DNA from: an uncultured Gimesia sp.
Lineage (GTDB): Bacteria > Planctomycetota > Planctomycetia > Planctomycetales > Planctomycetaceae
NCBI RefSeq assembly: GCF_937910335.1
Contig: NZ_CALEMX010000242.1
Coordinates: forward strand, 1 to 35,307
DNA length: 35,307 nucleotides
Reading direction: 5' to 3'
Shown here: in pieces, positions 6,088 through 6,366 of the stretch
Numbering within the stretch: position 1 is the first letter of the stretch
How the letters are laid out: every line of letters begins with the position of its first letter
Made by a program: the position numbers and the translations under genes
The notes under the pieces: generated by a model
The model's input: the letters and a program-made list of their open reading frames with translations, nothing else
The model's database searches: none
Told to the model about the DNA's origin: nothing

Positions 6088-6102
6088 CTGCCAACTTGGC
6101 AG
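6088..6102. promoter_or_regulatory. Perfect 15-bp palindrome, candidate enhancer-binding-protein site upstream of groEL1
   Basis: CTGCCAA-C-TTGGCAG is a perfect 7-1-7 inverted repeat. It ends about 75 bp upstream of the -24 element of the predicted groEL1 sigma-54 promoter, a usual distance for an activator that acts by DNA looping. Its left ten bases, CTGCCAACTT, recur at 6230-6239 inside the groEL1 leader. It is not a CIRCE element and not an NtrC-type GCACC-GGTGC site. The role as a binding site is inference from symmetry and placement. Confidence 0.5.
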
Positions 6103-6176
6103 TCTGAGATCACAATCTGAAAGAAGGGGATTTCATAAATCATTATATATCTGTCTCTTACAGACTGTGATTTCAA

Positions 6177-6193
6177 TTGGCATGATGATTGCT
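6177..6193 (+). promoter_or_regulatory. Predicted sigma-54 (RpoN) promoter for groEL1
   Basis: The sequence TTGGCATGATGATTGCT has the invariant GG (6179-6180) and GC (6191-6192) separated by exactly 10 nt, with TTGGCA and TTGCT matching consensus and T in place of C after GGCA. The predicted start near 6204 gives a leader of about 160 nt that carries the two-tier hairpin. It points toward groEL1, the first gene downstream. A sigma-54-dependent chaperonin has a precedent in Bradyrhizobium japonicum groESL3 (NifA/RpoN). Confidence 0.6.
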
Positions 6194-6260
6194 TTTAGAG
6201 TCTGTGATGGTCGGGGTACAGGTATGACCCTGCCAACTTTGTTGTATTACACCTAACGTA

Positions 6261-6309
6261 CTCACACGCCGACCTGCATTTGATTTGCAGGTAGAGTTAA
6301 TCGTGTGAG
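6261..6309 (+). promoter_or_regulatory. Two-tier inverted repeat in the groEL1 leader
   Basis: Outer arms CTCACACG (6261-6268) and CGTGTGAG (6302-6309) are perfect complements. Inside them lies a second perfect hairpin, ACCTGCA (6272-6278) and TGCAGGT (6286-6292), around a 7-nt loop. The element ends 57 nt before the groEL1 GTG and has no T tract, so it does not look like a terminator. As RNA it would form a stable stem-internal loop-stem in the 5' leader; as DNA it could be an operator. Function unknown. Confidence 0.5.
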
Positions 6310-6346
6310 ATATCATCGTGGTCATGGACAAATTTATTGGCCATTA

Positions 6347-6361
6347 TTGCTGGTTGAGGAG
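6347..6361 (+). promoter_or_regulatory. Possible ROSE-like Shine-Dalgarno-masking mini-hairpin of groEL1
   Basis: UUGCU (6347-6351) could pair across a 5-nt loop with AGGAG (6357-6361) of the groEL1 ribosome binding site, giving U-A, C-G, G.G, U-A and U.G pairs. The UYGCU motif pairing to the SD through a G.G pair is the signature of ROSE RNA thermometers. The stem is short and does not extend, so this is only a candidate. Confidence 0.2.
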
Positions 6362-6366
6362 AGACT

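Follow-up and report, generated by a model that had tools for sequence, protein, structure and literature searches.

The region ahead of groEL1 in this Gimesia sp. contig is very probably a sigma-54 promoter with an upstream enhancer, one copy of a chaperone regulon signature that, judging from comparisons of sequence, would be activated by an enhancer-binding protein (EBP) and would replace sigma-32 and HrcA/CIRCE in the class Planctomycetia. An NtrC/PspF-type EBP would bind CTGYCA-N3-TGRCAG, some 105-145 bp before the transcription start, and, via DNA looping and ATP hydrolysis, would open the sigma-54 polymerase poised at the -24/-12 element. This signature would act likewise before groEL1-groES-groEL2(-dnaJ-grpE), groES-groEL3, dnaK-clpB and the tandem hsp20 genes. 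Since these four chaperone operons have it in common, the activator signal would most likely be protein-folding (heat) stress, with the activator system standing in for the sigma-32 and HrcA/CIRCE systems.

In the window (the whole stretch of DNA analysed, 35,307 nucleotides), CTGCCAACTTGGCAG forms a perfect 7-1-7 palindrome, and 75 bp separate its end from the TGGCAT of the -24 element. The sequence TTGGCATGATGATTGCT at 6177-6193 has GG-N10-GC spacing, and within it the sigma-54 pattern TGGCAY-N5-TTGCW, kept across the class, is matched exactly at 6178-6193; TGGCAYNNNNNTTGCW has its single exact match in the window at that site. The palindrome, the GG-N10-GC spacing and the gap of about 75 bp are all exactly as the original prediction described them. 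The promoter places the predicted groEL1 start at about 6204 and the centre of the palindrome at about -108 from it.

Features of the groEL1 operon and its upstream region (positions in the window)
Feature	Coordinates	Strand	Remarks
Palindrome CTGCCAACTTGGCAG	6088..6102	.	Proposed enhancer (UAS), putative EBP site; from own sequence and relatives
Island TCTTAC	6156..6161	+	Between palindrome and promoter; from alignment of 15 same-genus genomes
-24/-12 sigma-54 promoter (predicted) TGGCATGATGATTGCT	6178..6193	+	Consensus match and conservation
groEL1 5' untranslated leader (predicted)	6204..6366	+	Strongly conserved in the genus
groEL1	6367..8088	+	GTG start; His/Asp-rich segment ahead of GGM tail
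groES (Cpn10)	8230..8520	+	
groEL2	8683..10302	+	
dnaJ	10480..11622	+	Same-transcript membership inferred from order and strand only
grpE	11659..12258	+	Same-transcript membership inferred from order and strand only

Several other features of the locus deserve mention. The stretch of the groEL1 leader just 5' of the GTG is nearly invariant in the genus, and hairpin arms CTCACACG/CGTGTGAG occur at 6261-6268 and 6302-6309. An RNA thermometer is not claimed here, given one compensatory pair in the hairpin, a shuffle z-score for leader folding of only -0.61, and no match in an Rfam search of the leader. The C-terminal part of GroEL1 (7936-8085) consists of the His/Asp-rich segment and then a GGM-rich tail of unusual length. 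On the other side of the intergenic region, the divergent ammonium transporter gene amt (4253-5611, minus strand) is preceded at a distance of about 130 bp by a -24/-12-like site, AGGCACACTCTTTGCT, at 5742-5757 on the minus strand. Because this site is kept within the genus, amt is probably also sigma-54-dependent.

The pair of elements is conserved at both groE operons. Upstream of groEL1, the palindrome and the -24/-12 element lie exactly 90 bp apart in 15 of 15 same-genus genomes, and in the alignment of these genomes the palindrome core CTGCCA-N3-TGGCAG and the ATTGGCATGNNGATTGC block stand out as islands in diverged DNA. When the pair was scored as palindrome plus -24/-12 element with no more than 4 mismatches in total, it was present in 29 of 36 groEL1 upstream regions, from 7 families, and class-wide in 30 of 34 groES-groEL3 upstream regions. 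It appeared in none of 1400 Markov resamples (0/720 for groEL1, 0/680 for groES-groEL3), and reversed, reverse-complement and far-upstream controls gave 3 matches in 210. A weak pair or no scored pair was found at groEL1 in G023 and several other genomes, and at groES-groEL3 in G020 and G022. In the 32 lineage-operon sites, the search pattern itself fixes the GG and GC of the -24/-12 element; 21 of them have a G directly after TGGCAY, which was not part of that pattern, in agreement with the published sigma-54 consensus TGGCACG. GG-N10-GC and the palindrome are both retained throughout the same-genus set and through the class, the opposite of the non-conservation that would have counted against the original prediction, and comparison of relatives lends strong support to groEL1 having a predicted sigma-54 promoter with an activator palindrome.

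At groES-groEL3, the palindrome of the Gimesia genome itself is CTGCCATATTGGCAG, within a longer inverted repeat. The pair there is mostly 120-126 bp apart, start to start, across the class, with the palindrome centre about 140 bp before the predicted start. The genus promoter at this operon, AGGCACGGCGTTCGCA, is a weaker consensus match than that of groEL1, but the GG, the GC and the greater part of the block do not vary. About 40 bp 3' of the groES-groEL3 palindrome there is also a conserved CTGWCCGGCAG (Gimesia locus L038, at about 1020-1035, and its relatives), which resembles a compressed second site.

Start-to-start distances of 89-93 or 120-126 bp in most lineages place the palindrome where an upstream activator sequence is looked for, some 80-200 bp upstream with conserved spacing. 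The distances from palindrome to start of about 108 and 140 bp at the two operons are in the usual enhancer range. Across lineages, the spacings (79, 89-93, 100-101, 111-113 and 120-126 bp) tend toward steps of one DNA turn, with R=0.64 at 10.5-10.75 bp, in lineages that are not fully independent, so a p-value for the spacing is not to be leaned on. Clusters one turn apart would suit DNA looping.

GroEL1 relatives were also searched in named genomes, giving 80 loci. The pair is present at no more than 5 mismatches in the 11 best loci (L186-L196), from Planctomycetaceae, Pirellulaceae and related Planctomycetota, as well as at L203 (Phycisphaerales) and L207 (Planctomycetota), and it is marginal at L221. 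Among the 80 loci it is absent from every one labelled as another phylum except L196, and CIRCE is found in many of these. The pair is not universal in Planctomycetota, since several loci of the phylum (L206, L222, L238, L239, L256 and L259) are without it. L196 is a metagenome-assembled contig labelled Actinomycetes, with a planctomycete-like groEL1 (63% identity) preceded by both palindrome and -24/-12 element; it is probably a mislabelled or mixed assembly.

A pattern-based scan of the whole Gimesia genome, allowing the palindrome no more than 1 mismatch, found four places. One is that at groEL1 and another lies upstream of groES-groEL3 (C240:986); the other two matches, each with 1 mismatch, lie inside coding sequence and were rejected as regulatory sites. 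The original prediction linked one of two chaperonins to sigma-54, which is wrong. The genome has three GroELs, the third encoded on contig C240, 3' of the second groES, and both groE operons carry the signature.

The signature extends to other chaperone operons. In 17 same-genus genomes, the pattern of palindrome plus GG-N10-GC had clearly more matches than the same pattern read backwards, and its recurrent intergenic families were groEL1, groES-groEL3, tandem hsp20 and dnaK-clpB. The tandem hsp20 signature, matched by eye, occurs in 16 of these genomes, and the dnaK-clpB signature, by the strict pattern, in 7. In the 12 hsp20 and 5 dnaK upstream regions examined in full, a perfect -24/-12 element (TGGYAY-N5-TTGCW) follows the palindromes, of which there are two, exactly 46 bp apart in every case. 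Their distances are 119-121 and 165-167 bp at hsp20 and 113 and 159 bp at dnaK. That the 46-bp distance is identical at two operons with no relation to each other speaks for a genuine two-site enhancer. A single odd signal acting on one chaperonin, as first envisaged, is the wrong scope for a signature carried by both groE operons, dnaK-clpB and hsp20-hsp20. The gene secA was considered as a further regulon member: in the three same-genus upstream regions examined (L291, L292 and L293), a palindrome, CTGCCAGTATGACAG, precedes its ATG by about 97 bp. No -24/-12 element stands between the two, so secA was not counted among the targets, although it is heat-induced in R. baltica and may yet belong to them.

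Of the usual heat-shock regulators, HrcA was found in none of 40 relatives, with a model that was positive in 7 of 14 controls, and CIRCE (TTAGCACTC-N9-GAGTGCTAA) is absent, its best match in any groE upstream region having 6 mismatches. No RpoH exceeds the curated cut-off in the 40 relatives (best about 182 bits, against 323). A sigma-70-family protein of about 290 amino acids is present in nearly all of them at about 150-180 bits against the same cut-off, and may be a divergent heat-shock sigma factor. The Gimesia copy (G000:C388:10295-11074) is matched by the RpoH model over its full length, well below the cut-off. RpoN is present in 38 of 40 relatives. The Gimesia draft is without rpoN, which is most simply an assembly gap because contig C308 begins right after the rpoN domain, as seen against a 7-kb piece of a close relative (G004).

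The conserved activator element is CTGYCA-N3-TGRCAG and not the NifA site TGT-N10-ACA, and TGCCA/TTGGCA occurs nowhere in the text of a paper on Desulfovibrio EBP motifs. The Gimesia genome encodes 11 strong EBPs. None is encoded beside a chaperone gene, and no EBP gene is preceded by a matching, properly placed palindrome, so assigning the activator by neighbourhood or by autoregulation was rejected. Among the EBPs sampled from the class, two types occur nearly everywhere: a PspF-like type without a sensor domain (L126; orthologue G000:C483:6601 in the Gimesia genome) and a response regulator adjoining a histidine kinase (L127; orthologue G000:C558:7927). These are candidates for the activator, and they form a shortlist rather than an identification because only part of the EBPs of those genomes was sampled.

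Expression data come from R. baltica, in which heat shock induces Cpn60 RB8966, Cpn10 RB8969 and RB10627, GroEL RB8970, DnaJ RB8972, GrpE RB8974, DnaK, ClpB and two Hsp20 genes (PMC2754498). This list names the same operons as those that bear the signature in the genomes compared here, and, to judge by the locus numbers, the genes are probably ordered as in the window. In the same array, the mRNAs of rpoH, rpoE and rpoN were unchanged during chaperone induction (PMC2754498), as activation through an EBP and sigma-54, if true, would explain.

From these observations we infer that an EBP binds the palindrome and that heat is its signal. A fuller proposal, about which we are evenly divided, sees the main heat-shock response of Planctomycetia, and of at least some further Planctomycetota, as a sigma-54 regulon under positive control. 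In it, one dedicated EBP, perhaps of the L126 type and restrained by free chaperones, would act through the common palindrome to switch on both groE operons, dnaK-clpB and hsp20, replacing sigma-32 and HrcA. It may instead be that sigma-54/EBP control is real and the signal is something other than heat or misfolding, such as a nutrient, oxygen, the cell cycle or a two-component input, with heat induction achieved by another route. The heat data are from R. baltica only, and an L127-type EBP, beside its histidine kinase, could sense something else; however, the targets common to the signature are almost purely proteostasis genes, the same set as the R. baltica heat-shock list, and HrcA/CIRCE is absent, which makes a different signal rather unlikely.

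Other explanations would remove the EBP from groEL1 control altogether. Perfect palindromes are typical of repressors, and with a weak RpoH-like sigma factor at hand, the palindrome could be the operator of a repressor or another non-EBP regulator, the genes being transcribed by a sigma-70-type polymerase. We consider this improbable: the palindrome lies 105-145 bp upstream of the start defined by the -12 element and is regularly paired with a conserved -24/-12 element, and no sigma-70-like promoter was found on the plus strand in 5612-6400. Hardly credible is the idea that the palindrome serves amt and not groEL1. The gene is divergent and has its own genus-conserved -24/-12-like site at 5757-5742, but it was rejected as the target because the two genes are neighbours in this genus alone (15 genomes) and are not adjacent in the other families that keep the palindrome, which moreover recurs at three other chaperone operons. 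Control of these operons by an EBP and sigma-54 thus remains the preferred reading. If correct, the common enhancer and sigma-54 promoter would represent a further way for bacteria to run a heat-shock response, with an ATP-driven EBP as the activator, and the palindrome offers a motif with which the regulator and the remaining regulon can be sought.

The sigma-54 half of this reading is not new as a prediction, because a 2025 PLoS One study using PSSMs already reports that predicted sigma-54 promoters are enriched at chaperone COGs of Planctomycetia and Bacteroidota (PMC12316311). The two analyses agree in sigma factor, bacterial class and gene groups (GroEL, GroES, DnaK, GrpE and IbpA COGs), but theirs is a promoter enrichment at the level of COGs, to which the present analysis adds a common enhancer with its spacing and the paired arrangement at 46 bp; the text of PMC12316311 mentions no palindrome, UAS or inverted repeat. 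Nor did the literature searched, outside which an earlier computational survey of Pirellula EBPs falls, describe a common palindromic enhancer, a fixed spacing, a paired arrangement or their coincidence with the absence of HrcA/CIRCE.

The signature resembles HrcA/CIRCE in that one palindromic element is common to groE and dnaK operons, although that system is one of negative control through an inverted repeat near the start, and neither of its components was detected here. Like the sigma-32 (RpoH) regulon, it joins groE, dnaK, clpB and hsp20 in one regulon, but with a predicted activator-dependent sigma-54 promoter, and RpoH does not reach the curated cut-off. Bradyrhizobium japonicum likewise has a groE operon, groESL3, that combines a -24/-12 promoter with an activator site upstream; it is under sigma-54/NifA control, with NifA sites TGT-N10-ACA, is one of several copies and is tied to nitrogen fixation. 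The original prediction drew on this example, which fits poorly: there, one extra groESL copy is under a nitrogen-fixation activator, whereas here a different palindrome precedes both groE operons, dnaK-clpB and hsp20-hsp20, and therefore looks like general chaperone control. Sigma-54 or NtrC-type proteins are tied to heat-shock genes elsewhere as well, in the sigma-54 promoter of Escherichia coli ibpB and in Myxococcus HsfA, an NtrC-like heat-shock regulator, but those cases concern single genes and not a common enhancer of the main chaperone operons.
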